Shown here one piece after another: positions 38,772 through 56,236 of a stretch of 64,000 bases of DNA. The DNA is from Candidatus Sulfotelmatobacter sp. (GTDB taxonomy: Bacteria > Vulcanimicrobiota > Vulcanimicrobiia > Vulcanimicrobiales > Vulcanimicrobiaceae). The DNA lies in assembly GCA_035504415.1 (NCBI GenBank), contig DATJRY010000007.1, positions 186,001 through 250,000 of the forward strand. The letters run 5' to 3'. Each line of letters opens with the position of its first letter. Positions within the stretch are counted from its first letter, which is position 1. A program made the position numbers and the translations under genes. A model generated the notes under the pieces. The model was given only the letters and a program-made list of their open reading frames with translations. It searched no databases and was not told the origin of the DNA.

Positions 38772-39056
38772 GTGCCAACAGCAATGGGATATTGGACATT
38801 CGCCGCGATCTGGTTTGCCGTCATGGCCGTCATCCTTGGGAGGTCACTCAGCAGTGCACGTCGCCGAGGAGTTCGAATCCACTGGATCGGTTGGCTCGCG
38901 ATCCCGCTCTTCTGCGTCGGGACGGTCGTAGCGGCGTACTATCATCGAGGCGTTTCCGCCGGCCTGTGGGGCGCCGTCGCGCTCGTTGGATTCCTTTTGG
39001 TGAACTACGCAATGCGCAGGTCAGATCGAAGTCGTGATGACATGACGGGCAGTTAG
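38772..39056 (+). CDS. Small three-helix membrane protein (possible immunity partner)
   Basis: 94 residues from a GTG with AGGATAAAAGG upstream; the ATG at 38784 is an alternative. Three hydrophobic segments: TFAAIWFAVMAVILG, IGWLAIPLFCVGTVVAAYY, and GLWGAVALVGFLLVNYAM, then a charged tail RRSDRSRDDMTGS. It begins 18 bp after the YD-repeat stop on the same strand, where RHS-type toxins usually have their immunity gene; membrane immunity proteins are known for pore-forming or envelope-targeting toxins. Its stop overlaps the convergent glycosyltransferase stop by four bases (TTAG), marking the end of the island. Function is inferred only from position. Confidence 0.6.
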   Translation: MPTAMGYWTFAAIWFAVMAVILGRSLSSARRRGVRIHWIGWLAIPLFCVGTVVAAYYHRGVSAGLWGAVALVGFLLVNYAMRRSDRSRDDMTGS

Positions 39057-42000
39057 TGCGGCGGTAGGATCCAGCTGGTGTGCGGGATGTGCAGCTCGTC
39101 GGGCCACATGCGCGCATACCATTGGTCGTGGGTGATCTTCGTGCCGGCCAAGACCGGATAGAAGAACGCGAACAGCGCTACCACGGCGGCGGCGAAGACG
39201 CCCAGGTACCACTTCACCTGTTCGGGCCGTAGGCGGCGGACGAAGCGCTGGACCAGGATCGCGTCGCAGAGCACGATGATGACCAGGTTCGGGAAGAAGT
39301 GGTACTCGAAGAGCAGTCGCGGCGCGCGCGTCCACGGCAGCCACTGGATCAGGTACGCCGCGACCAGCAACGCATAGCCTTTGTCGCGCTCTTGCCAGGC
39401 GAGGTAGGCGACGTACGGCACCGAGATCAAGCCCATCAGGAAGACGAGCGGGTTCGGCAGCGCCAAGATCTCGGCGACGCAGCACGCGCTGCCGGGCGCA
39501 CCGGGCGACTGTTGCGCGCCGAAGGTCGAATAGTAGTACGAGATCGGCACCTGCAGGATCGGCCACTGCCACCACTTCGATTCGTAGGGGTGGGTCGCGG
39601 CGGAGACGCTGCTGGTGTGATACCAGAACATCTGCTGCTGCAGGTACAACATGTCGGCCAAGTTGTGGCCGAGCAGGAAGAACGGGATGTACGCGACCCA
39701 ATAGGCTGTCGCTACCGCAAAGAGGATCACCGCACCGTCGGCGTCCAGGGTGAACCCGCGCGGGTTGCCCCATTGGGCGCGGCCGGGCACGTAGCGTTGC
39801 GCCCAGACCGCACCGAGCACGACGGCGATGACGATCAAGTCGAACAAGCCGTTCCACTTACTTGCGACGAGCAGTCCGGCCGATATCGCGAGTACGGTCA
39901 GCCAGATCCAGCGTTGCTTCGCGTTCACGACCGGTGCGCCATCGACGCGCATGATGCCGTCGGGCGTGAAATCGGCCGTACCGTCCGGCGTCGCGTAGCG
40001 CAGCGCGCCGTCGCGGGTCGTCGTAACCTTCAATTCCGCCGGATCGTTGACGGCGCGCGGCGGCACGAGCAGAACCGTACCCTTCTGGCCGGGAACTGCT
40101 TGCGTTCCGTCCGCGTACGACGTCGTGCTTCCGCGCGTTGGCAAGAAGCGCGGCACGATGACGCGCGCGAGCACGTATATGCCGAGCATTGCGTACAGAA
40201 ATGCGACGGTATACGGATCGATCGTCAGGATGTGCGACCACACCCCGGTCCACCGCACGTTCGAGAAGAGGTTGCGCAGCGAAATATCGGACGGGACGCT
40301 GGTGATACCGGAGGCGATCTCTTTGATGTGGTTTGCCGGTCCGAGGTTGACCCACCACGAGAAGATAATCGAGACCGGGATACCGATCGCCAGCGTGATC
40401 CAGAACGGCCAACCGAAACGCGCGGGAACGATGGCGCGGATGCGGATCTGCGTCGCCAGCCACAAGCGGTAGAGCGCGTAGAGGACGACCGTGATCAGGG
40501 TCGCGATCGTGATCTCGCCGGTCGCCAGCCGCGACTCGACGAAGTGGAAACCGTCGAAGGTCAGCATCAGCGCCGCCAAGGCGGCGAACACCGTCGAAGC
40601 GGTGAGGCGTTTGGCGAACGCGTAGACGACGCCGACCTCGAGTGCGCCGATCACGATGTTGAGGAACCGCCAGCCGTACGAGGTGTTGCCCTCTCCGTGC
40701 AGGCCGCCGAACAGCAGCATCGAGAGCGCGATGACGAGCTTGGTGAACGGCGGGTGCGTCCACTCGAACTGGTTGACGCCGCGCAGATACTCTTCGCCGG
40801 CGCGAGCGAAGTAGATCTCGTCGAAGATCCGCTCGTGCGGCCACGAGTAGCCGATCACCGCGATCACGAACGCGACGACGACGAAACCGCACAGCAGCAG
40901 CGCGTCGAGCCGGGTGAGGGTGGCGATCCCCTCGCGCGGGCTGAACCAGCGCCGAGCGCGCTCGGCGGCGGCGAGGATCGCGTCGCGGACGACGACTTCG
41001 AATTGCGGCGGCGGCGCGGCGGTCGCGCCCGCGGTCGCCGTCTCGGTGCCGAAATACCGGAACGCCAGCACGAAGAACAGCAGCACGTTGAGCGCCGGCA
41101 AGAAGTGGCCCCAGAACGGCCACAGGTCGTACGCGTCCACGCCGGGGAACGGTATCTTCGACTCGAGCACCGTCTGATAGGTGAGCGAGTAGATCAGGTT
41201 CAGGCCCATCGTCAGCGTCAGCGTGATCGTCGACCAGATGCCGATGCGGCCCAGACCGATGAGCGGAATCGCCAGCAGGAACGCGCCGTAGACGTAGCGC
41301 TCGTGCATGCGCGTGGCCAGCACGAAGAACGCGAACGCCAGCAGCATGGCGCCTTCGACGAAGGCGCGCTCGTCGCGGCGCTGCAGGTAGCGTCCGACGA
41401 CCAGCGCGCTCGCCGCCGCGACCAGCGCGATGCCCCAAGCCCAGAGCGGTCCCAGCGCGAGCCCGAAGAACGTCAGGGGCTGCGTGTCGGGCTGCCAATA
41501 CTTGTGGACCAGGACGTAGATCGTGAACGCGTTGACGGAGGTGTACGGATAGACGGTGCTGCCGAACGCGTAGCGCTTGAGCAGCCACGGCACCACGTCC
41601 GGTGCCGGATGGAACAGCAGCGCGACCGCCAGGCCGAACAGGAGGCCGGCGCCGACGCCGGCGGCGGCGTCACGCAGCCGGCGCGCGCGCGTCGCGGCGT
41701 CGGTGGTCGCGAACGGGAACGCCAGCATGATGAACCCGACCGTCGCCGCTTGGGGCTTGATGAGGATCGAGAACGCGAACGCCAGCCACGCCAAGATCGT
41801 CAGCGAGCGGCTCGTGGCCGGGTCGTCCTGCGAGCGCAACAGCAGCCAGATCGCGATCAGCACCAGCCCCCACGAGACCGAGTCGATCTGTCCCCATGCG
41901 GCCGAGATGTAGATCGCGGCCGGGTTGAGCGCCAGCGCCGCCGCCGCCCACAGCGAGACCTTCGGGCTGGCCCAGCGGCGCGCGATCGCGAAGACGACCG

Positions 42001-42412
42001 CCGCGTCGACGAGATCCATCGCGATCGCCGGCAGCTTCACCAGCGTGCGCAGCAGGGAGTAGCCGGGATCGTTCCCCACCACCGCCAAGAGCGCGCCGTA
42101 GACGTGCCCGATCACCCACTCGATGATGAAATAGCCCGGCGGGTAGTCGGCGAAGCCGGAGTTGGCGTAGAACTGCCACGGTGCGTGGTCGCGCAGCGTG
42201 ATCGCCCACGACTCGAAGGCCGCGATGTCGTTGTGGAAGCCTTCGCTGCCCAGGAGCAACAGCCGGACGACCAAGCCGACCGCCAAGATCGCGATCAGGG
42301 GCGTGTTGACGGCGGTTCGCTCAACGACCGCCTTCGCGCCGAGTCGGGCGCCAGTCTGCATGTTCGCTCCGTGGGTGACGCCCGCCACATCGGCGGAGCC
42401 GCCTCCCTCCAT
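39053..42412 (-). CDS. Double GT-C glycosyltransferase fusion (GT87-like + protein O-mannosyltransferase-like)
   Basis: 1119 residues. Residues ~35-460: a multi-helix GT-C module with FHNDIAAFESWA (first-loop acidic motif) and ADYPPGYFIIEWVIG, as in GT87/mannosyltransferase-type membrane enzymes. Residues ~495-1115: a second GT-C module resembling dolichyl-phosphate-mannose protein mannosyltransferase (PMT/GT39) with RIFDEIYFARAGEEYL, FEWTHPPFTKL and HFVESRLATGE, plus a hydrophilic loop (~760-845). It would transfer sugars from polyprenyl-phosphate donors on the periplasmic side. The ATG overlaps the amine-oxidase stop (TAATG); a second ATG at 42361 has a better GGAG site. Such a one-chain pair is unusual. 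Confidence 0.82.
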   Translation of the reverse strand: MEGGGSADVAGVTHGANMQTGARLGAKAVVERTAVNTPLIAILAVGLVVRLLLLGSEGFHNDIAAFESWAITLRDHAPWQFYANSGFADYPPGYFIIEWVIGHVYGALLAVVGNDPGYSLLRTLVKLPAIAMDLVDAAVVFAIARRWASPKVSLWAAAALALNPAAIYISAAWGQIDSVSWGLVLIAIWLLLRSQDDPATSRSLTILAWLAFAFSILIKPQAATVGFIMLAFPFATTDAATRARRLRDAAAGVGAGLLFGLAVALLFHPAPDVVPWLLKRYAFGSTVYPYTSVNAFTIYVLVHKYWQPDTQPLTFFGLALGPLWAWGIALVAAASALVVGRYLQRRDERAFVEGAMLLAFAFFVLATRMHERYVYGAFLLAIPLIGLGRIGIWSTITLTLTMGLNLIYSLTYQTVLESKIPFPGVDAYDLWPFWGHFLPALNVLLFFVLAFRYFGTETATAGATAAPPPQFEVVVRDAILAAAERARRWFSPREGIATLTRLDALLLCGFVVVAFVIAVIGYSWPHERIFDEIYFARAGEEYLRGVNQFEWTHPPFTKLVIALSMLLFGGLHGEGNTSYGWRFLNIVIGALEVGVVYAFAKRLTASTVFAALAALMLTFDGFHFVESRLATGEITIATLITVVLYALYRLWLATQIRIRAIVPARFGWPFWITLAIGIPVSIIFSWWVNLGPANHIKEIASGITSVPSDISLRNLFSNVRWTGVWSHILTIDPYTVAFLYAMLGIYVLARVIVPRFLPTRGSTTSYADGTQAVPGQKGTVLLVPPRAVNDPAELKVTTTRDGALRYATPDGTADFTPDGIMRVDGAPVVNAKQRWIWLTVLAISAGLLVASKWNGLFDLIVIAVVLGAVWAQRYVPGRAQWGNPRGFTLDADGAVILFAVATAYWVAYIPFFLLGHNLADMLYLQQQMFWYHTSSVSAATHPYESKWWQWPILQVPISYYYSTFGAQQSPGAPGSACCVAEILALPNPLVFLMGLISVPYVAYLAWQERDKGYALLVAAYLIQWLPWTRAPRLLFEYHFFPNLVIIVLCDAILVQRFVRRLRPEQVKWYLGVFAAAVVALFAFFYPVLAGTKITHDQWYARMWPDELHIPHTSWILPPH

Positions 42413-44938: not shown

Positions 44939-45306
44939 TGTGGAACGCGCGCCCGTTCCGGCTGCGTTACCCCCAAGCAATGCGCCTCGTGCCCGCCGTC
45001 ATCGCCTTGGGCCTCCTTGCCATCCCCCTCCCGGGGTTGGCGCAGGGGACGGCGCCCGCTGCGGTCGACGGCGGTACGATCGAAGGCCGCGTGACCAACG
45101 TCGACTACCAGCGCGGACTGCTGCACGTCGAGACGTCGCGCAAGGTCAACTTCGAGGTCTCGGTCATGCCGACGACCAGCATCCAGACCTCCGACCCCGG
45201 CTATCACGCGATCACCGACGTCTCGCGCGGCTCGAAGGTCTCGATCCTCGCCTCGCGCATCGGCGGCAAGCTCGTCGCGCAGATCATCAAGCTGTTCAAG
45301 CACTGA
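44938..45306 (+). CDS. Small secreted protein, DUF5666-like
   Basis: 122 residues from the coupled ATG, or 108 from the ATG at 44980, which gives a cleaner signal peptide (MRLVPAVIALGLLAIPLPGL, cut after LAQG). The mature part (EGRVTNVDYQRGLLHVETSR, ASRIGGKLVAQIIKLF) has the strand pattern of small OB-fold-like DUF5666 domains. It ends 19 bp before the peptidoglycan-recycling operon but shows no functional link. Confidence 0.6.
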   Translation: MWNARPFRLRYPQAMRLVPAVIALGLLAIPLPGLAQGTAPAAVDGGTIEGRVTNVDYQRGLLHVETSRKVNFEVSVMPTTSIQTSDPGYHAITDVSRGSKVSILASRIGGKLVAQIIKLFKH

Positions 45307-45325: not shown

Positions 45326-46891
45326 ATGCCCCCGACTGCCGAGTTGGAAGGGCTGGCGCGTGGGACGCTGGCCGTCGGGTTCGCCGGAGCGAACGTCGCC
45401 GACGCGCCGCTCGGCGAGCTGCGCGCGCTCGCGCCCGGTGCGATCACGCTGTTCGCCCGCAACGCGGGCGACGGCACCGAGCTGCCCGCGTTGATCGCCG
45501 CGCTGCGCTCGCTGGGCGCGCCGCCGCCGCTGATCGCGATCGATCAGGAGGGCGGCCGCGTCGCGCGGCTGCGCACGGGCGTCGCGCCGTTGCCGTCGGC
45601 GATGGCCGTCGGCGCAGGCGGTGATCCGGCAGCCGCGCGCGCGCTGGGCACGCTGCTTGGGCGCGACCTGGCGACGCTCGGGATCAGCGTCGACTTGGCG
45701 CCGGTGGCCGATCTCGCGCTGGCGCCGGGCAGCACCGTGATCGGCACGCGCGCCTATGGCGACGACCCGCGTGCCGTCGCGCCGTTCGTGACCGCGTTCG
45801 CCGAGGGCCTCGAACGCGGCGGCGTCGCGGCGACACTCAAACATTTCCCGGGTCACGGTGCGACCGCGCTCGACTCGCACGCGGAGCTGCCGCGCGTCAC
45901 GACCGACGCCGCCACGCTGCGCGTGCGCGAGCTCGTCCCGTTCGCGGCGGCGATCGAGGCCGGCGCGTCCTCGCTCGTGCTGACCGCGCACCTGATCGTC
46001 GGCGCGCTGGACGCCACGCTGCCGGCCTCGCTCGCGCCGGCGACCTACCGGCTGTTGCGCGAGGAGCTTCGCTTCGCGGGCGTCGCCGCCACCGATTGTC
46101 TGGAGATGGACGCGATCGCGGGCGGCATCGGCACCGTCGAGGGTGCGGTCGCGGCGCTCGCCGCCGGCGCCGATCTGGTGCTGATCAGCCACCACCTGGA
46201 GTTGGCGCGCGACGCGGTCGCGGCGATCGTGCGCGCGGTCGAGAGCGGCCGGCTGCCACGCGCGCGTTTGGAAGAAGCGCACGCGCGCGTGCTGCGCTTG
46301 CGCGAGCGGTACGCGCAGCTGCGGCCCGCGGCGGCGGAGGCGGTCGACACGGCTGCGCCGCTGGCGGCCGCGCGCCGTGCGGTCACGAGCGTTCGCGGCG
46401 CGGCGCGGTTACGCAGCGGCGCGCCGGTGACGGTGATCTCGTTCGAAGGCACGCTCGGCGATGCGGCGGCGGCATCGGGTGCGCGCCCGGGCGCCGACGC
46501 GCCCTCGCTCAGCGCAGCGCTGCGGCGGCGGCGCTGGAAGAGCGAGCTGATGCGCGTCCCGCTCGTCCCCGACGCGGACGACCTCGAGCTGCTGCTCGAG
46601 CACGTCCCGCGGCTGGGCGAGCGCGAGTTCGTGCTGGTCGTGCGGCGCGCCGACCTGCATCCGGCGCAGCGCGAAGCCGTCGCGCGCATCCTGGCGCTCG
46701 CGCCCGACGCGCTGATCGTCTCGGCGCGTGAACCGTACGACGCCGTGGCGTGGCCCGCCGCGCAGCGCGTCGTCTGCTGCTACGGCGACGACGCGCTGGC
46801 GTTCGAGGGTCTGGCCGACGTCCTCGACGGCCGCGCGCCGGCGAGTGGGACGCTGCCGGTGCGGATCGGGCAGGGCACCGCTGTTCGCTGA
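45326..46891 (+). CDS. nagZ: Beta-N-acetylglucosaminidase NagZ (GH3), two-domain
   Basis: 521 residues; ATG directly after an in-frame GTG, AAGG upstream. GH3 signature: LIAIDQEGGRVARLR, KHFPGHGATALDSHAELP (the Asp/His dyad peculiar to NagZ), and TDCLEMDAI with the nucleophile Asp. A ~170-residue C-terminal alpha/beta domain follows, as in Bacillus-type NagZ and unlike the ~340-residue single-domain proteobacterial enzymes. No signal peptide, so it acts in the cytoplasm on GlcNAc-(anhydro)MurNAc products. First gene of the recycling operon. Confidence 0.88.
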   Translation: MPPTAELEGLARGTLAVGFAGANVADAPLGELRALAPGAITLFARNAGDGTELPALIAALRSLGAPPPLIAIDQEGGRVARLRTGVAPLPSAMAVGAGGDPAAARALGTLLGRDLATLGISVDLAPVADLALAPGSTVIGTRAYGDDPRAVAPFVTAFAEGLERGGVAATLKHFPGHGATALDSHAELPRVTTDAATLRVRELVPFAAAIEAGASSLVLTAHLIVGALDATLPASLAPATYRLLREELRFAGVAATDCLEMDAIAGGIGTVEGAVAALAAGADLVLISHHLELARDAVAAIVRAVESGRLPRARLEEAHARVLRLRERYAQLRPAAAEAVDTAAPLAAARRAVTSVRGAARLRSGAPVTVISFEGTLGDAAAASGARPGADAPSLSAALRRRRWKSELMRVPLVPDADDLELLLEHVPRLGEREFVLVVRRADLHPAQREAVARILALAPDALIVSAREPYDAVAWPAAQRVVCCYGDDALAFEGLADVLDGRAPASGTLPVRIGQGTAVR

Positions 46892-47915
46892 GGTCGATGC
46901 CGTCGTTCGCGCCGCGCTCGCCCAGCGCTACAGCGCGGCGGTCGTGCGGATCGAGCAGGGCGGCCGGGTGCGCTTCGAGCGTGCCTACGGGCGCTTGGGC
47001 GATGACGCGGCCGCGGGGCCGGTGCAAGTCGACACGCGCTTCGACCTCGCCTCGATCACCAAGGTCTTCGTCGCCACCGTCGCACTCGACGCGGTCGCGC
47101 GCGGGACCCTGGCGCTCGACGCGCCGCTGCTCGATCTCGTCCCGGAGTGGCGCGCGAACGAGCATGCACCGATCGTGCTGCGCCGGCTGCTCGCGCACGA
47201 CGGTGGCTTTCGCAGCGGGGCCGACTGGCGCACCCTGCTCGACCGCGACGTCGAGGCGTTCGCGTTGACCGAACCGCTGGCCGCACCGGTCGGCGAACGG
47301 GTGATCTACAGCGACTTGGGCTTCATCGCGCTGGGCGTCGTGCTGGCGCGCGCGCACGCGACCAGCCTGCGCACGCTGGTCGACGCGCGGCTGCGCGCGT
47401 TCGGCGCGCGTTCGACCGCGTTCACGCCGGCCGGACGCGAGCGCGCGAGCATCCCGGCGACCGAGACCGATGCCTGGCGCGGCGGCGTGCAGGGCGTCGT
47501 GCACGACGAGAAGGCGTACTTGCTGCGCGGGATCGCCGGCCACGCCGGGCTGTTCGGCGACGCGTGCGATGCGGCGGCGCTGACCGAGTGGTATCTGGGC
47601 GCGCTGCACGGCCGGCCGACCCCGCTCGACCGCGGCCTGGCCCGCGAGGCGGTGCACCAGCAGGCCTGGGATCCGGTCTTGCGCCGCGGCCTGGGGTGGG
47701 CGCTCAAGACGACCGGCGAGAACTCGTGCGGGACGCGGATGAGTGCGGACACCTTCGGCCACACCGGCTTCACCGGGACGAGCGTATGGGCGGATCCGCA
47801 GCGCGACCTGAGCGTCGTGCTGCTGACCAACGCCGTGCACTACGGTCGCGGTGACCTGCGCGCGGTGCGCGCGGCGGTCTGCGACGCGGCCGTCGCCGCG
47901 GTGGACGCCGCATGA
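46845..47915 (+). CDS. Serine hydrolase of class C beta-lactamase fold, AmiE-like amidase candidate
   Basis: About 345-356 residues. Active-site motifs of the penicillin-binding/class C family: DLASITKVF (SxxK), IYSDLGFIALG (YxD in place of YxN) and FGHTGFTGT (HTG in place of KTG). In Bacillus subtilis the neighbour of nagZ is amiE, a beta-lactamase-fold N-acetylmuramoyl-L-alanine amidase that removes peptides from MurNAc before NagZ acts; the same neighbourhood here suggests the same job. No signal peptide is visible. Start unclear: GTG at 46845 overlaps nagZ; homology-like sequence begins at LFAEVDAVV, where CTG at 46881 follows GGGCAGGG. Its stop overlaps anmK (ATGA). Confidence 0.78.
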   Translation: MGRCRCGSGRAPLFAEVDAVVRAALAQRYSAAVVRIEQGGRVRFERAYGRLGDDAAAGPVQVDTRFDLASITKVFVATVALDAVARGTLALDAPLLDLVPEWRANEHAPIVLRRLLAHDGGFRSGADWRTLLDRDVEAFALTEPLAAPVGERVIYSDLGFIALGVVLARAHATSLRTLVDARLRAFGARSTAFTPAGRERASIPATETDAWRGGVQGVVHDEKAYLLRGIAGHAGLFGDACDAAALTEWYLGALHGRPTPLDRGLAREAVHQQAWDPVLRRGLGWALKTTGENSCGTRMSADTFGHTGFTGTSVWADPQRDLSVVLLTNAVHYGRGDLRAVRAAVCDAAVAAVDAA

Positions 47916-49000
47916 GGATCGCCGGCGCCATCTCGGGCACCTCGCTCGACGGGATCGACGTCGCGATCTGCAGCGTCGAGCCCGACGGCGCCGGGGTGCG
48001 CGTGGCCTGCGAGCGCTTCGCCACCGTGCCGTTCGACGAGCACCTGCGCGCGCGCATCGTGGCCGCCTATCCGCCGGCGCGCGTCGACGCGCGCGTGGTG
48101 TCGGCACTGCACGCCGTCGTCGGCGAAGCGTTCGGCGAGGCGATCGCGCGGGTCGCCGGCGAGACGGCGCTCGACGCGGTCGCCTCGCACGGCGTGACGC
48201 TCGCGCACGACGGCGACGCGCACCACTCGCTGCAGATCGGCGACCCGTTTCGCATCCGCGAGCGCGTCCGCGCGACGGTGATCAGCGACTTTCGCTCGGC
48301 CGACACGGCCGCGGGCGGGAGCGGTGCGCCGCTCGTTCCGGCGGTCGACCGGCTCTTGTTCGGCGCGCACGCGCCGTGCGTCGCGCTCAACGTGGGCGGC
48401 ATCGCGAACCTCACCGTGCTGCCCGACGGCATCGCGTTCGACTGCGGCCCGGCCAACTTGCCGCTCGACACGTACCTCGCGCTGCGCACCGGCGGCGCGC
48501 AGCGCTACGACGCCGGCGGCGCGCGCGCGCTGGCGGGCAACCCCGACAGCGCGCTGCTCGACGAGCTGCTGGCCGATCCGTACTTCGCGCAGCCGCCCCC
48601 GAAGTCGACCGGGCGCGAGCGCTACGGCGCGGCGTACGTCGCGGCACTGCGGCCGCGACTCGACGCGCTGCCGCTGAACGACGCGCTGGCGACGCTGGCC
48701 GCGCTCACGGTGCGCACGGTGGCCGGCGCCGTGCGCGCGCACGCGCCCGACGCGCGGCTGCTGATCGTCGCCGGCGGCGGCGTGCACAACGCGGCGCTGT
48801 TCACCGGTTTGCAGGCGCAGCTGGCCGGCGTACGCGTCGCGAGCGCGGCCGCGTTCGGCGTCGATCCCGACGCCAAGGAAGCGATCGCGTTCGCGGTGCT
48901 CGGGCACGAGACGCTGCACGGGCGGCCCGGCAACGTGCCCAGCGCGACCGGCGCGCGCGGCCCGCGCGTGCTCGGGACGATCGCGCCGTTCGCGCGCTGA
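47912..49000 (+). CDS. anmK: Anhydro-N-acetylmuramic acid kinase
   Basis: 362 residues, standard length. N-terminal ISGTSLDGIDVAICSVEPD (the name-giving SGTSxDG motif), VASHGVTLAHD, LNVGGIANLTVLPDG and a C-terminal VAGGGVHNAALFTGLQAQL match the AnmK pattern of the Hsp70/actin-like kinase fold. It cleaves the 1,6-anhydro bond of anhydroMurNAc while phosphorylating it, giving MurNAc-6-P for MurQ two genes downstream. ATGA overlap with the upstream hydrolase. Confidence 0.93.
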   Translation: MRIAGAISGTSLDGIDVAICSVEPDGAGVRVACERFATVPFDEHLRARIVAAYPPARVDARVVSALHAVVGEAFGEAIARVAGETALDAVASHGVTLAHDGDAHHSLQIGDPFRIRERVRATVISDFRSADTAAGGSGAPLVPAVDRLLFGAHAPCVALNVGGIANLTVLPDGIAFDCGPANLPLDTYLALRTGGAQRYDAGGARALAGNPDSALLDELLADPYFAQPPPKSTGRERYGAAYVAALRPRLDALPLNDALATLAALTVRTVAGAVRAHAPDARLLIVAGGGVHNAALFTGLQAQLAGVRVASAAAFGVDPDAKEAIAFAVLGHETLHGRPGNVPSATGARGPRVLGTIAPFAR

Positions 49001-49040
49001 GCGGCAAGGACGGGCTCGGACCGCGCCGGAAGGCGGCGGG

Positions 49041-49934
49041 ATGATCGTGATCGGGGTCGACGCCGGCGGTTCGCAGACGCACGCGGCGTCGGCGCAGGAC
49101 GGGACGCTCGTGCGCGAGGCGCGCGGGCCGGCGGCCAACCCGAGCGCGCTCGGGATGGATGCCGCGGCGGCCGCCATCGTCTCGACGATCCAGGACGTGC
49201 TGGCCGGCGCGGCGCCCGCGGCGATCTACGTCGGCGCCGCCGGCGCCGGCCGTCTCGCCATCGCCGCGGCGCTGCGCGCGCAGTTGGCGACGGTCTATCC
49301 GGCCGCCCGGCTACAGGTCGGCGACGACGCGTCGATCGCGCTGCGCGCCGCGATCCCCGACGGCGACGGCGCGGTGCTGATCGCCGGAACCGGCTCGATC
49401 GCGTACGCCGAGCGCGGCGGGAACGCGCACCGCTTGGGTGGTCTGGGATGGCTGGCCGGGGACGAAGGCGCGGGGTTTTGGATCGCCCTGCAAGCCGTCA
49501 AGCTGTACGGCCGCGTCCTGGACGCTCGCGCGCCGCGCGACGAGACGACCGATCTGGTCGCGGCGGCGCTCGACGCGCCCGATCGCGATCGCTATCTGGC
49601 CGCGCTCTACGACGCGCCGCTGCGACCCGCAACGCTGGCGGCGCTCGCGCCGCGCATCATCGCGCTCGCCGGCGCGGGCAACCGCGCGTCGACGAAGATC
49701 GTGCAGCAGGCGGCGCTCGAGTTGGGCGACCTCGCCAAGGGCATCCTGCGCGCCGCCGGGTTGACCGACGCGCCGCGCATCGCCCTGGCCGGCGGCCTGT
49801 TGCGGGAGAACAGCCTGCTCTCGTTCTTGCTCGAGACGCGGTTGAACGGCGACGTGCCGGGCGTCGAGATCGTCAAAGGCGGCGACGAAGCGGTGCACGG
49901 TGCGCTGCGCCTGGCCGCGCGCATGGCCGGATGA
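49041..49934 (+). CDS. MurNAc/GlcNAc kinase of the BadF/BadG family (MurK/NagK-like)
   Basis: 297 residues. IGVDAGGSQTHAASA (phosphate 1), VLIAGTGSIAYAERGG (phosphate 2), GLGWLAGDEGAGFWIALQAV and IALAGGLLREN are the BadF/BadG/BcrA-type ATPase motifs used by GlcNAc kinases. MurK of Clostridium acetobutylicum, of the same family, phosphorylates both MurNAc and GlcNAc at O6. Between anmK and murQ, with NagZ and an AmiE-like enzyme upstream, MurNAc is a sensible substrate. The ATG has GGAAGGCGGCGG upstream; the stop overlaps murQ by ATGA. Confidence 0.85.
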   Translation: MIVIGVDAGGSQTHAASAQDGTLVREARGPAANPSALGMDAAAAAIVSTIQDVLAGAAPAAIYVGAAGAGRLAIAAALRAQLATVYPAARLQVGDDASIALRAAIPDGDGAVLIAGTGSIAYAERGGNAHRLGGLGWLAGDEGAGFWIALQAVKLYGRVLDARAPRDETTDLVAAALDAPDRDRYLAALYDAPLRPATLAALAPRIIALAGAGNRASTKIVQQAALELGDLAKGILRAAGLTDAPRIALAGGLLRENSLLSFLLETRLNGDVPGVEIVKGGDEAVHGALRLAARMAG

Positions 49935-50818
49935 GCGAGCTGCCGTCGACGGAGGCCGTCGACCCCGCCACCGCGAGCATCGATCGGCTCGAGGGCACGC
50001 AGCTGGCGCGCACGCTGCTCGAGACGCACCGCGCGGCGGTCGACGCGGCGGTCGCCGCGGCGGACGCGGTGGCGGCCGCGACCGACGCCGTCGTCACGGC
50101 GCTGCGCGGCGACGGACGCGTCGTGCTGGTCGGGGCGGGGACGAGCGGACGGCTGGCGGTCCTCGACGCCGCCGAGCTGCCGCCGACGTTCGGGGCCGAT
50201 CCGGCGCGCGTGCAAGCGCGCATCGCCGGCGGCGAGGCGGCCTTGCGCCGCGCGGTCGAAGGTGCGGAGGACGACGCGGCGGCCGGCGCGCACGCGGTCG
50301 CCGACGTCGGCGCGCACGACGTCGTGATCGGGATCTCGGCCAGCGGCGGCGCGCCGTTCGTGCGCGCCGCGCTGCAGGCCGCGCGCGCGCGCGGCGCGCG
50401 CACAATCGCGATCGTGAACGCGCCCGCGACCCCGTTGGCGGCCGCTGCCGACGTCGCGATCGTCGCCGTCAGCGGCGCCGAGCCGATCGCCGGCTCGACC
50501 CGTCTGCGCGCGGGCACGGCGCAGAAGATCGTGCTCAACGCCATCTCGACCGGCGCGATGATCCGGCTGGGGAAAACCTATCGCAACCGGATGGTCGATC
50601 TGGTCGCGACCAACGCCAAGCTGCGCGCGCGCGCCGAACGGCTGGTCCGCGAGCTGGCCGGCGCGCAGGTCGATGCGCCGGCGCTGCTCGCGGCGGCGGG
50701 TGGCTCGGTGAAGGTCGCCATCGTGATGGCCCGTCGCGGCGTTGATCGCGCCGCGGCCGAACGTCTGCTGGCGCAGAGCGACGGCCGGTTGGCGGCCGTC
50801 ATCGAAGGTCGAGCGTGA
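49931..50818 (+). CDS. murQ: N-acetylmuramic acid 6-phosphate etherase
   Basis: 295 residues, SIS-fold. Characteristic GAGTSGRLAVLDAAELPPTF, RIAGGEAALRRAVEGAEDD (acidic catalytic residues), GISASGGAPFVRAAL and the late STRLRAGTAQKIVLNAIST match MurQ. It removes D-lactate from MurNAc-6-P to give GlcNAc-6-P. The last 20 bases overlap the convergent GNAT gene. Confidence 0.94.
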   Translation: MSELPSTEAVDPATASIDRLEGTQLARTLLETHRAAVDAAVAAADAVAAATDAVVTALRGDGRVVLVGAGTSGRLAVLDAAELPPTFGADPARVQARIAGGEAALRRAVEGAEDDAAAGAHAVADVGAHDVVIGISASGGAPFVRAALQAARARGARTIAIVNAPATPLAAAADVAIVAVSGAEPIAGSTRLRAGTAQKIVLNAISTGAMIRLGKTYRNRMVDLVATNAKLRARAERLVRELAGAQVDAPALLAAAGGSVKVAIVMARRGVDRAAAERLLAQSDGRLAAVIEGRA

Positions 50819-51621: not shown

Positions 51622-53169
51622 GTGCTCGCGGCGCTGGCATCGTCGCTGCTGGCGTTGACGGTCGTCGTCGTCCCGCTCGACGATCGTCCGGTCACCGCGC
51701 AGCTGCCGGTGCTGCTGGGCGCGATCGCCGGCGTGCGGGTGGCGGAGCCGCCGCCCGCGCTGCTGGGGCGCTATCTGCGGCCGGGCGATCCCGATGCGAT
51801 CCTGCGCTGGCTGCGCACCGACGCGCCGCGCGACGCGCGCGCCTACGTCGTCTCGAACGACATGATCGCCTACGGCGGCTTGGTCGCCTCGCGTATCCCG
51901 CAGACCTCGGGCGCGCAAGCGGAAGCGCGCGTCGCGGCGCTGGCTGCGTTCCGGCTCACCCACGGCGACGCGTCGTTCGCGCTGTTCGGGACGGTGATGC
52001 GGCTCGCGCCGACGGGGATTCCGGCGCTCGGCGACGCGGCGTCGTTCCCGTTCGCGGGCGAGGTCTGGCCCCGTCTGCAGCAATACGCGAACCTGCCCGA
52101 CCCGCCGCTGACCGACGCCGATCGCGCCACGGCCGCGCGCTTGCGCGCGCAGTTGGGACCCGATCTCGAGGCGTATCTCGCGGCGCGCGCGCGCGACCGC
52201 GACGTCGATCTGTTCGCGCTCGGCGAGGCGGCGCAGGGACGCTTCGACCGGGTGGTGCTCGGCCAGGACGACGCCGGACCGGTCGGCTTGCACCTGCGCG
52301 ACTTGGCCGCGTTGCGCGCCTACGCGGCGCGCTGGGTGCCGCCCGGTCGCGCGGCGATCGAGCCGGGTGCCGACGAGCTGGGGATGGCGCTGCTGGCCGC
52401 CGCGCTGGCGCGCCAGGCGGCGTTCGTGCCGCGCGTGCGGGTGATCTATTCGCGCGCCGACGGCGGGGGCGTCAACGACCCCATCGAGTTCGCGCCGGTC
52501 GCCACCTCGATCGGCTCGCTGATCCGCACCTGCGGCGCGGTCGAAGTCGATGCGCCCGACGCGCCGGCCGACGTCGAGCTGTTCGTCAAGGTACCGGCCA
52601 CCGGCGAGGCCGACGAGCACGCCTTCGTCGACCGCATCGCGCACGACGCGACCGCCGCCGGAGCGCCGCTGGCGGCGCTCGCCGACCTCTCGTTCCTGGT
52701 CGCCGACGACTACGCGCAGCAGCGGCAGCTGATGCGCGATCTGATCGCGCGCGGCGTCGCCGGCCGCGTCGGCGCCTTCGCGTCGTGGAATACGGTCGCC
52801 AACACCGTCGGCACCACGTTGCCCGAGGCCATCGCGGTGCTGGCCGGCAAGCGCATGGGCACGTACGACCCGACCGCGCACGCGCGCTTCACGCTGATGC
52901 GATACGTCGACGACATCGCCTTCCACGACGACGTGCGGCCGCGGCTCAACACCGACCTCGACGCGCAGGGCGTGGACGACCACACCTACTTGCTGCCGGG
53001 GACGGCCGGCGCGACCGCCGACGAGAACCGCACCCTGCTCTGGCGCGACGGCCTGGCGCTCTTGCACCAGATCGAGCCGCAATTCCGCGACGCGGGCTTC
53101 ACCATCACGCTGCCCTGGGACCGCACCTTCGAGACGGAGCTCGACCTTCGGCTGACGCCCAACCTTTGA
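51622..53169 (+). CDS. DUF4127 family protein
   Basis: 515 residues from a GTG one base after the previous stop. Signal-peptide-like start MLAALASSLLALTVVVVPLD, then the DUF4127 hallmark PLDDRPVT, SNDMIAYGGLVASRIP, LGQDDAGPVGLH, GADELGMALLA and WNTVANTVGT, in the usual order and overall length. Biochemical function unknown. The proximity to murein-recycling genes is noted, but it is not part of their overlap chain. Confidence 0.88.
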   Translation: MLAALASSLLALTVVVVPLDDRPVTAQLPVLLGAIAGVRVAEPPPALLGRYLRPGDPDAILRWLRTDAPRDARAYVVSNDMIAYGGLVASRIPQTSGAQAEARVAALAAFRLTHGDASFALFGTVMRLAPTGIPALGDAASFPFAGEVWPRLQQYANLPDPPLTDADRATAARLRAQLGPDLEAYLAARARDRDVDLFALGEAAQGRFDRVVLGQDDAGPVGLHLRDLAALRAYAARWVPPGRAAIEPGADELGMALLAAALARQAAFVPRVRVIYSRADGGGVNDPIEFAPVATSIGSLIRTCGAVEVDAPDAPADVELFVKVPATGEADEHAFVDRIAHDATAAGAPLAALADLSFLVADDYAQQRQLMRDLIARGVAGRVGAFASWNTVANTVGTTLPEAIAVLAGKRMGTYDPTAHARFTLMRYVDDIAFHDDVRPRLNTDLDAQGVDDHTYLLPGTAGATADENRTLLWRDGLALLHQIEPQFRDAGFTITLPWDRTFETELDLRLTPNL

Positions 53170-53226: not shown

Positions 53227-54216
53227 TCACGGGTCGGCGATGCCGGTCGTCTCGGTGATCCCGACTTGCTCGTACGGCGTGAGCTCGTTGTGCGCGCTGA
53301 CTTCCTCGAAGGTGATGGTCGTGTCGTAGCACGTGTCGCCGCTGTCCTGCATCGGTCCGAGCGCGGTCTCGCGGTCGATGTACGAACCGCCTTCCCACTG
53401 TCGGAACTCGACCAGCCACGGCGTGGCGCTGAACGGCAGGCCGTTGCCGATCCCCGACACCTTGGCGCGCACGACGTCGAACGTCTTCATGTCGATCCAC
53501 AGCTCGCGCAGCCGGTAGCGATTGGGGTCGCGCAGCGGCGTCAGCCCCAGGTGGTAGAGGTGGACGTTGCCTTCGGTGACGTTCCCCAGATTCACGACCG
53601 TGTAGGTGCGCGCGATGACGGCCGTGCTGCCGATGTGCGGCAGATACGGTTTGGTCGTCGAGATGTCGACCAGATCTTGCGTCTGCGAGACCGGCGGCGC
53701 GTTGAGCGAGATGCCGAAGTCTTGATTGATCGCGAAGGTGACCTGGCCGAGCACGTCGGCGCTGGTGGCCGCGTTCATCGTCAGCCCGGTGCCCAGGATG
53801 TTGCCGCCGCCTTTGGTCGGCGCGGGCACGTTCTGCACGCCGCTGCTCCCGCCCGCGATCCCGATGTTGATCCCGGTCGGCGTCGGCGGGTGTGCTTGCT
53901 CCTCGCGGCTGATGCCGTGGGTGAAGACGAGCCGCTTTTGCAGGTCCTCGACGGTGTCCCACGAGCGGATGACCGGCACGTTGCCGTCGCGATACCGCAC
54001 GACCGCGGTATAGCTCGCGTAGCGCGGATAGCCGCTGCTGGTGCGTTCCTTGCGCGCGGCCAGGAAGATCGCGTCGGGATCGGTCAGCGTGGTCTGCACG
54101 GCGGCGCCGCTCGTCGTCGCAGCCGGCGTCGTGTCGGCGGCGCGTGCGACGGTCGCGCTGCCGAGCAGCACCGCCAGGGTCAGGGCAAGCGCCGTCGGCG
54201 AGGTTCCTGAACGCAT
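53227..54216 (-). CDS. Secreted protein of unknown function
   Basis: 329 residues. The ATG overlaps the epimerase stop (TGATG). Signal peptide [20 protein letters not shown], cleavage after VARA. The mature protein contains a Gly-rich, repeat-like segment (INIGIAGGSSGVQNVPA), TRTYTVVNLGNVTEGNVHLY-like strands, and EFRQWEGGSYIDRETALGPM. LRELWIDMKTFDVVRAKVSG resembles a segment of outer-membrane or LolA-like lipoprotein-sorting proteins, but this is weak. Third gene of the mutase operon; no metabolic link evident. Confidence 0.65.
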   Translation of the reverse strand: MRSGTSPTALALTLAVLLGSATVARAADTTPAATTSGAAVQTTLTDPDAIFLAARKERTSSGYPRYASYTAVVRYRDGNVPVIRSWDTVEDLQKRLVFTHGISREEQAHPPTPTGINIGIAGGSSGVQNVPAPTKGGGNILGTGLTMNAATSADVLGQVTFAINQDFGISLNAPPVSQTQDLVDISTTKPYLPHIGSTAVIARTYTVVNLGNVTEGNVHLYHLGLTPLRDPNRYRLRELWIDMKTFDVVRAKVSGIGNGLPFSATPWLVEFRQWEGGSYIDRETALGPMQDSGDTCYDTTITFEEVSAHNELTPYEQVGITETTGIADP

Positions 54217-54658
54217 CACCTCGGAGAACGGCCTGCTTCGGCCGCCGGTTCCGCATGGCCGCCCGGTTGACAGAGCTCGATCAGGACGCCGCCGGTCGAT
54301 TTCGGGTGCAGGAACGCGATCGTGTTGCCGTGCGCACCGCGCCGCGGCTGCTCGTCGATCAGGCGGACGCCGGCGTCGCGCAGGCGCGCCAGCTCGGCGC
54401 GGATGTCGCCGACGCGGTACGCGGTGTGGTGGAGCCGCGAATCGGCCTCGCCGCGGAAGCGCGCGACCGGCGAGCTCTCGTCGAGCGGCCGGAGCAGCTC
54501 GATGATCGCATCCCCGCTGCGCAGACCGACCGCCTCGATCCCCTGGTCGGCGACGATCTCGCGGTACACCTGCGTGAATCCCAGCGTCTGCGTGTAGAGG
54601 CGAATCGTGGCCTCCAGATCCTTGACCACGATCGCGACGTGGTCGATGGGGGCGTCGA

Positions 54659-54662
<4 letters not shown>
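54216..54662 (-). CDS. mce: Methylmalonyl-CoA epimerase (VOC family), TTG start
   Basis: 148 residues. [20 protein letters not shown] (module 1, His ligand), [20 protein letters not shown] (module 2, His ligand) and GVLIELCQ (Glu ligand) give the MCE signature; [13 protein letters not shown] is diagnostic. The TTG codon overlaps the mutase stop (TTGA) with GGGAGAG six bases upstream; no other start precedes the conserved region. It interconverts (R)- and (S)-methylmalonyl-CoA alongside the mutase. Confidence 0.88.

Positions 54663-56236
<1,574 letters not shown>

Follow-up and report, generated by a model that had tools for sequence, protein, structure and literature searches.

The operon and its genes

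The stretch of DNA analysed here (the window) comprises the 64,000 nucleotides at positions 186,001-250,000 of contig DATJRY010000007.1, assembly GCA_035504415.1, from Candidatus Sulfotelmatobacter sp. (Vulcanimicrobiaceae), a draft genome of 4.17 Mb in 21 contigs that is 95.7% complete. It carries a putative murein-sugar recycling operon of five consecutive genes, encoding NagZ, a serine hydrolase of the S12 family (here called Ami), AnmK, a BadF-type sugar kinase and MurQ, with a gene of the family DUF4127 further downstream (Table 1). An initial annotation, made from the sequence alone, had named the five genes in this order, and their Pfam and NCBIfam matches bear it out as to identity, position and strand. 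It had also described them as joined mostly by 4-base overlaps; this holds for two of the four junctions (Ami/AnmK, 47912-47915; kinase/MurQ, 49931-49934), but NagZ and Ami overlap by about 47 bases, assuming that Ami starts at the GTG at 46845, and AnmK and the kinase are separated by a 40-base gap. The ATG of NagZ at 45326 is preceded, at about 8 bases, by the motif GAAGG. The small open reading frame (ORF) just upstream may be the opening gene of the transcription unit; a Pfam search with it, read from 44938, gave no match, and neither a sigma-70 promoter nor a convincing terminator was found when these were sought for the locus.

Table 1. Genes of the locus, in window coordinates (GlcNAc, N-acetylglucosamine; MurNAc, N-acetylmuramic acid)
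Gene product	Position	Strand	Match and remarks
NagZ, two-domain GH3 beta-N-acetylglucosaminidase	45326-46891	+	PF00933, 2.8e-63
Ami, S12 beta-lactamase-fold serine hydrolase	~46845-47915	+	PF00144, 2.2e-46; start codon uncertain
AnmK	47912-49000	+	PF03702, 2.3e-91
BadF-type sugar kinase (MurNAc and/or GlcNAc 6-kinase, predicted)	49041-49934	+	PF01869, 2.5e-27
MurQ, MurNAc-6-phosphate etherase	49931-50818	+	NF003915, 322.7 bits (cut-off 168)
DUF4127 protein	51622-53169	+	PF13552, 9.1e-89; sixth member of the locus, conserved
Small ORF with signal-peptide-like N-terminus	44980-45306	+	just 5' of NagZ; in 7 compared loci (gene clustering)

NagZ has the GH3 domain, the Asp-x-His dyad loop and the Asp nucleophile of its family, with its catalytic motifs intact (KHFPGHG at 172, DSH at 183 for the Asp-His dyad, TDCLEM at 256). 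It scores 197 bits against PRK05337, slightly below the cut-off of 207, and its best match in the PDB, 6k5j, aligns over residues 16-513, which places it in the two-domain type. AnmK matches its Pfam family with 307 bits (cut-off 24) and the solved AnmK 3qbw with 6.9e-61 over residues 2-359, and carries the catalytic motif FDCGP at 176; MurQ, 42% identical to the Escherichia coli enzyme, has its motifs AAELPPT (at 80) and VEGAED (at 109) intact, so that both belong to their families. Signal peptides were found neither on NagZ and Ami of the window nor on those of the relatives inspected, and since both lack them, cleavage by these two enzymes is predicted to take place in the cytoplasm. A two-domain, signal-less NagZ and a cytoplasmic setting for all of the steps had been proposed initially, and on both counts the proposal stands: everything appears cytoplasmic.

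Conservation across the class

Synteny was surveyed by running the window proteins by tblastn on stretches fetched around matches to the kinase, AnmK and DUF4127. Among named genomes, the close matches are nearly all to Candidatus Eremiobacterota, WPS-2 or Vulcanimicrobiota, a phylum with Vulcanimicrobium alpinus as its cultured representative (PMC9758169); the rest are metagenome-assembled genomes (MAGs) labelled 'bacterium' or evident mislabels. After merging of duplicate contigs, the order NagZ-Ami-AnmK-kinase-MurQ, followed by DUF4127, is found on 50 distinct contigs; 14 further ones have NagZ-Ami-AnmK-MurQ-DUF4127, without the kinase, and six have the first five genes but no DUF4127 within the stretch read. 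Of the 17 loci without a kinase (here with duplicates included), 16 have a gap of 0-54 bp between AnmK and MurQ and therefore contain no hidden kinase gene. No intact copy of the locus without AnmK was found; of 117 genomes from the class, 107 have AnmK and 98 have DUF4127. As the gene order is fixed throughout the class while AnmK stands alone in the stretches read from other classes, the arrangement is a property of this class and not due to chance; and as AnmK is never missing from an intact copy while the kinase is absent from 14 contigs, the route through anhydro-N-acetylmuramic acid (anhydroMurNAc) is the core of the system and the kinase optional.

A proposed cytoplasmic pathway for anhydromuropeptides

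The content of the genome was read through targeted searches and sequence stretches. It holds six SLT lytic-transglycosylase domains; lytic transglycosylases generate anhydro ends. AmpG, NagA and NamZ are absent from the window, as had been noted before, and NagA (over its cut-off) and an exported two-domain NamZ are encoded elsewhere in the genome. AmpG was sought with TIGR00901, which gave no match at E<=0.001 in this 95.7% complete genome, where a diverged carrier is possible. The genome's single Amidase_2-like protein (213 residues) scores 23.8 bits, against a cut-off of 26.

From this set of genes we infer, as the best explanation, the following substrates and route of import. Periplasmic lytic transglycosylases would cut the wall into GlcNAc-anhydroMurNAc-peptides, which would enter through some carrier that is not a recognisable AmpG and may be an ATP-binding cassette (ABC) importer. 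In the cytoplasm, NagZ would then take off GlcNAc and Ami the peptide, the latter in the role that AmpD has in E. coli; AnmK would open and phosphorylate anhydroMurNAc to MurNAc-6-phosphate, the BadF-type kinase would phosphorylate the freed neutral sugars, namely the GlcNAc released by NagZ and whatever MurNAc is free, and MurQ would convert MurNAc-6-phosphate to GlcNAc-6-phosphate and D-lactate, from where NagA could continue. The sixth member, the uncharacterised DUF4127 protein, would probably be an amino-sugar enzyme. The locus is thus read, with moderate confidence, as the operon with which one class recycles its murein sugars, serving a single cytoplasmic anhydromuropeptide pathway with the S12 hydrolase in AmpD's place and DUF4127 as its sixth member.

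An ABC importer for muropeptides is a reasonable guess, and a candidate component is the MalK/UgpC-like ABC ATPase that several genera of this class encode directly 5' of NagZ (for example L047:2515-3600 and L055:2154-3137). Between MurQ and DUF4127, a different family of this class has a branched-chain-type ABC operon of a binding protein, two permeases and two ATPases, which ends in DUF4127 (L167:3950-8732). This transporter is not the one encoded just upstream of the window: their 32-51% identity is ordinary family similarity.

The S12 hydrolase, proposed to take the place of AmpD

Ami has the S12 motifs S70xxK73, Y155SD and H306xG (as GHTG), invariant in 22 relatives, with YSD in place of YSN, as in E. 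coli YfeW, the product of the murQ-murP-yfeW cluster. It is 29% identical to YfeW over about 345 residues, with the motifs VHDEKA, GHAGLF and GHTG-TGT common to both, and matches the PBP4B model NF002968 with 1.3e-25, below the cut-off; the relation to the AmiE/PBP4B group, which the initial annotation had expressed as 'AmiE-like', is thereby confirmed. We propose that Ami is a cytoplasmic MurNAc-L-Ala amidase; it is the best amidase candidate in the genome because no AmpG was detected and Amidase_2 matches only below cut-off, which makes an AmpD doubtful. A Bacillus-like amidase thus seems to stand in for AmpD, the usual proteobacterial one.

The AlphaFold2 model of Ami (pLDDT 89) predicts a class C/EstB-type fold, within which sequence does not tell amidases, esterases and DD-peptidases apart. 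It is quite unlikely, even so, that Ami is a DD-peptidase or an esterase merely located in the operon: EstB-type esterases are its nearest solved structures and PBP4B its nearest named model, but a signal-less enzyme would meet no cross-linked wall to act on, in every intact copy Ami sits between NagZ and AnmK, where an amidase is needed, and in the Bacillus subtilis cluster it is amiE that is paired with nagZ (PMC5061867).

Several observations weigh against the reading of the locus as a complete anhydromuropeptide pathway. The S12 enzymes include esterases and DD-peptidases as well as amidases, with esterases as the closest solved relatives of Ami, and the assignments of both Ami and the kinase lie below curated equivalog thresholds. 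The Amidase_2-like protein with 23.8 bits could be an AmpD. No importer was identified, and none is encoded in the operon. The other classes of the phylum carry AnmK alone in the stretches read, so that the grouping is unsupported beyond this class.

The kinase, and one route or two

The initial annotation had seen in the operon two salvage routes meeting at MurQ, a Bacillus-type one through free MurNAc and a proteobacterial one through anhydroMurNAc. The conserved operon and the AnmK branch ending at MurQ stand; a separate Bacillus-type route is not established, because NagZ and Ami lack signal peptides and the anhydro route itself needs a cytoplasmic amidase when AmpD is absent. What characterises the Bacillus-type route is that NagZ and AmiE are exported and free MurNAc is taken up (PMC5061867), and such an exported pair is not what the operon encodes. 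This leaves the kinase as the sole gene pointing to free MurNAc, on which a two-route reading, possible as it is, would have to depend; the five enzymes make just as good sense as a single, complete pathway for anhydromuropeptides in which the kinase uses the GlcNAc freed by NagZ.

The best solved match of the kinase is the MurNAc/GlcNAc kinase 8zo3 (2.8e-22), which we take to be the MurK of Clostridium acetobutylicum (a reading of our own, absent from the results table), and it is about equally close to that MurK and to a broad-specificity hexokinase. GlcNAc released by NagZ requires a kinase in any case, and the simplest reading is that the enzyme would phosphorylate freed GlcNAc and/or MurNAc; it is an optional sugar kinase whose specificity the sequence does not reveal. 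A second BadF-type kinase of the same genome (contig 12), encoded beside an FAD oxidoreductase and the NanE epimerase, matches 8zo3 equally well (83.1 against 82.8 bits); FAD_oxidored, this kinase and NanE follow in a row (L035:4805-8067). In three species that belong to one genus, the match to the operon's kinase runs through one in-frame TGA (G015:C82, G016:C221 and G017:C74; L059-L061), probably a C-terminal truncation.

Two routes would indeed meet at MurQ if the kinase genuinely acted on MurNAc: it would phosphorylate free MurNAc, whether released by NamZ or by the action of NagZ and Ami on non-anhydro muropeptides, in a step separate from the phosphorylation of anhydroMurNAc. We consider this rather unlikely. 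The match to 8zo3 and the 4-base overlap with MurQ fit such an enzyme, and so would an exported NamZ that frees MurNAc; but the match does not discriminate, as the second BadF kinase near NanE scores alike, and genera without the kinase keep NamZ. The latter also led us to reject a kinase dedicated to the MurNAc from NamZ: its loss in a lineage should then have entailed the loss of NamZ, which did not happen, so that the two are not coupled. In the MurK of Tannerella forsythia, the lactyl group is accommodated by small residues at 133-135 (S133-P134-L135), with T94 as a further position at which a polar residue would clash (PMC10465942). The window's kinase has GGLG, with no bulky Glu or His, in place of the former, which is compatible with MurNAc; the T94 position is taken by an Asp (Asp96) and varies among relatives, which speaks the other way. 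Somewhat more plausible, if still short of even, is the anhydro route alone, with a NagK-type GlcNAc kinase for the GlcNAc freed by NagZ and MurNAc as no physiological substrate. The five enzymes would then be the exact set for GlcNAc-anhydroMurNAc-peptide, the kinase is dispensable where AnmK is not, and its sole NCBIfam match is NagK_SO3507. Yet this match, at 97.4 bits, is far under the equivalog cut-off of 370, the GGLG pocket is compatible with MurNAc, and related kinases are broad: the MurK of C. acetobutylicum acts on both MurNAc and GlcNAc (PMC5790795), and muramyl dipeptide is a substrate of human NAGK (PMC5790795, PMC10465942).

DUF4127, a conserved companion of MurQ

On the 50 and 14 contigs of relatives counted above, DUF4127 follows MurQ. 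In most other genera, no more than about 180 bp separate its start from the stop of MurQ, and in some the two genes overlap; in the window's genus they are about 0.6-0.9 kb apart, and in the window itself the interval of about 0.8 kb is occupied by a GNAT gene in antisense orientation and a small ORF for a secreted product. The N-terminus is clearly signal-peptide-like in several relatives, has only a short hydrophobic stretch in others and lacks both in several members from Bacillota.

A plasmid search with the window's DUF4127 as query found nothing; with a relative nearer to the centre of the family it did. Plasmids of Enterococcus and Carnobacterium carry NanE-HAD-DUF4127-PTS (phosphotransferase system) with an RpiR-type regulator, a Priestia plasmid has DUF4127 with NanE, ROK, ManA, PTS and RpiR, and the plasmid of Deinococcus sp. 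KNUC1210 has it with a sugar ABC operon, GH20 and a divergent nagZ. Counter-examples are plasmids of Alkaliphilus and Deinococcus ficus, where it lies beside unrelated genes. On one Deinococcus plasmid, a FAD_oxidored gene directly precedes DUF4127 (L192).

An alignment across phyla leaves D20, R22, R91, R127, R189, D217, D251, E252, E289, W389, N390, T391 and D431 invariant, a set of residues that looks like an enzyme active site. The AlphaFold2 model is confident (pLDDT 91.8, pTM 0.93), but as a whole chain it found no convincing solved relative: the best E-value in Foldseek is 1.3e-3, and VIA gives Z<=8.7 on partial ranges, about the tool's stated background. A profile search of PDB sequences gave no match either, and the family goes unmentioned in the papers of the searchable library. 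The sole strong structural match is an unnamed protein of 693 residues from the viral library BFVD, A0A346TNQ6, which has the DUF4127 fold (TM 0.82, 22% identity).

For the role of DUF4127 we infer, tentatively and at close to even chances, an enzyme of amino-sugar and murein recycling that has so far gone unrecognised; it would be in use in Eremiobacterota, Deinococcota and Bacillota, have a fold for which no clear solved counterpart was found, and in Eremiobacterota be the sixth member of the salvage operon. That it is a syntenic neighbour only, with no part in recycling, is nevertheless a serious possibility. The distance and the antisense gene in the window would agree with this, as would its place at the end of the branched-chain-type ABC operon in another family of the class and beside unrelated genes in a distant Opitutia MAG and on the Alkaliphilus and D. 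ficus plasmids. A mere neighbour is harder to reconcile with its closeness to MurQ in most other genera, with its remaining beside AnmK-MurQ after loss of the kinase, and with the company it keeps on the plasmids of Enterococcus, Carnobacterium, Priestia and Deinococcus sp. KNUC1210, near NanE, RpiR/MurR regulators, PTS or sugar ABC genes, GH20 and NagZ.

Comparison with known recycling systems

The locus resembles murQRP-amiE-nagZ-ybbC (NamZ) of B. subtilis in joining an S12 amidase, a two-domain NagZ and MurQ. In that species, NagZ and AmiE work extracellularly, with uptake of MurNAc by the PTS transporter MurP (PMC5061867), whereas in the window both enzymes are signal-less, AnmK and an ATP-dependent kinase are part of the operon, and NamZ is encoded elsewhere. 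With the AmpG-NagZ-AmpD-AnmK-MurQ recycling of E. coli it shares a cytoplasmic NagZ, AnmK, MurQ and the presence of lytic transglycosylases, but AmpG was not found, an S12 hydrolase replaces or supplements AmpD, and the genes form one operon; in E. coli, murQ lies with murP and yfeW. The adjacency of MurK and MurQ in a Gram-negative organism is known from murTKQ of T. forsythia, part of a nine-gene recycling cluster that, unlike the window's, includes AmpG, in an organism with no predicted AnmK ortholog (PMC7670621). In Rhodothermus marinus, whose genome has AnmK and NagK but neither AmpG nor AmpD, RmNag3 likewise couples NagZ to a beta-lactamase-type domain, but is fused, exported and encoded outside any AnmK/MurQ operon (PMC6987092).

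Against the systems of B. subtilis, T. forsythia and R. marinus, the eremiobacterotal operon combines known parts in a new way and adds one uncharacterised part. It shows how a little-cultured but widespread Gram-negative soil phylum appears to recycle its wall, apparently with an S12 hydrolase for AmpD and with no recognisable AmpG, and it links DUF4127, an unstudied family, with the salvage of amino sugars in three phyla; DUF4127 is the most useful lead from this locus.

Neighbouring genes

Convergent genes resembling methylmalonyl-CoA epimerase and mutase, at 54216-55999 (-) in the window, lie beside 17 and 21 of the loci compared; RmNag3 of R. marinus is likewise a neighbour of a methylmalonyl-CoA mutase gene (PMC6987092). 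An exported aspartyl-protease-like gene lies 5' of the operon in 19 loci (for example L040:1581-2975, -). Further upstream in the window, at 39053-42412 (-), an ORF of 1119 residues resembles two fused membrane glycosyltransferase halves.

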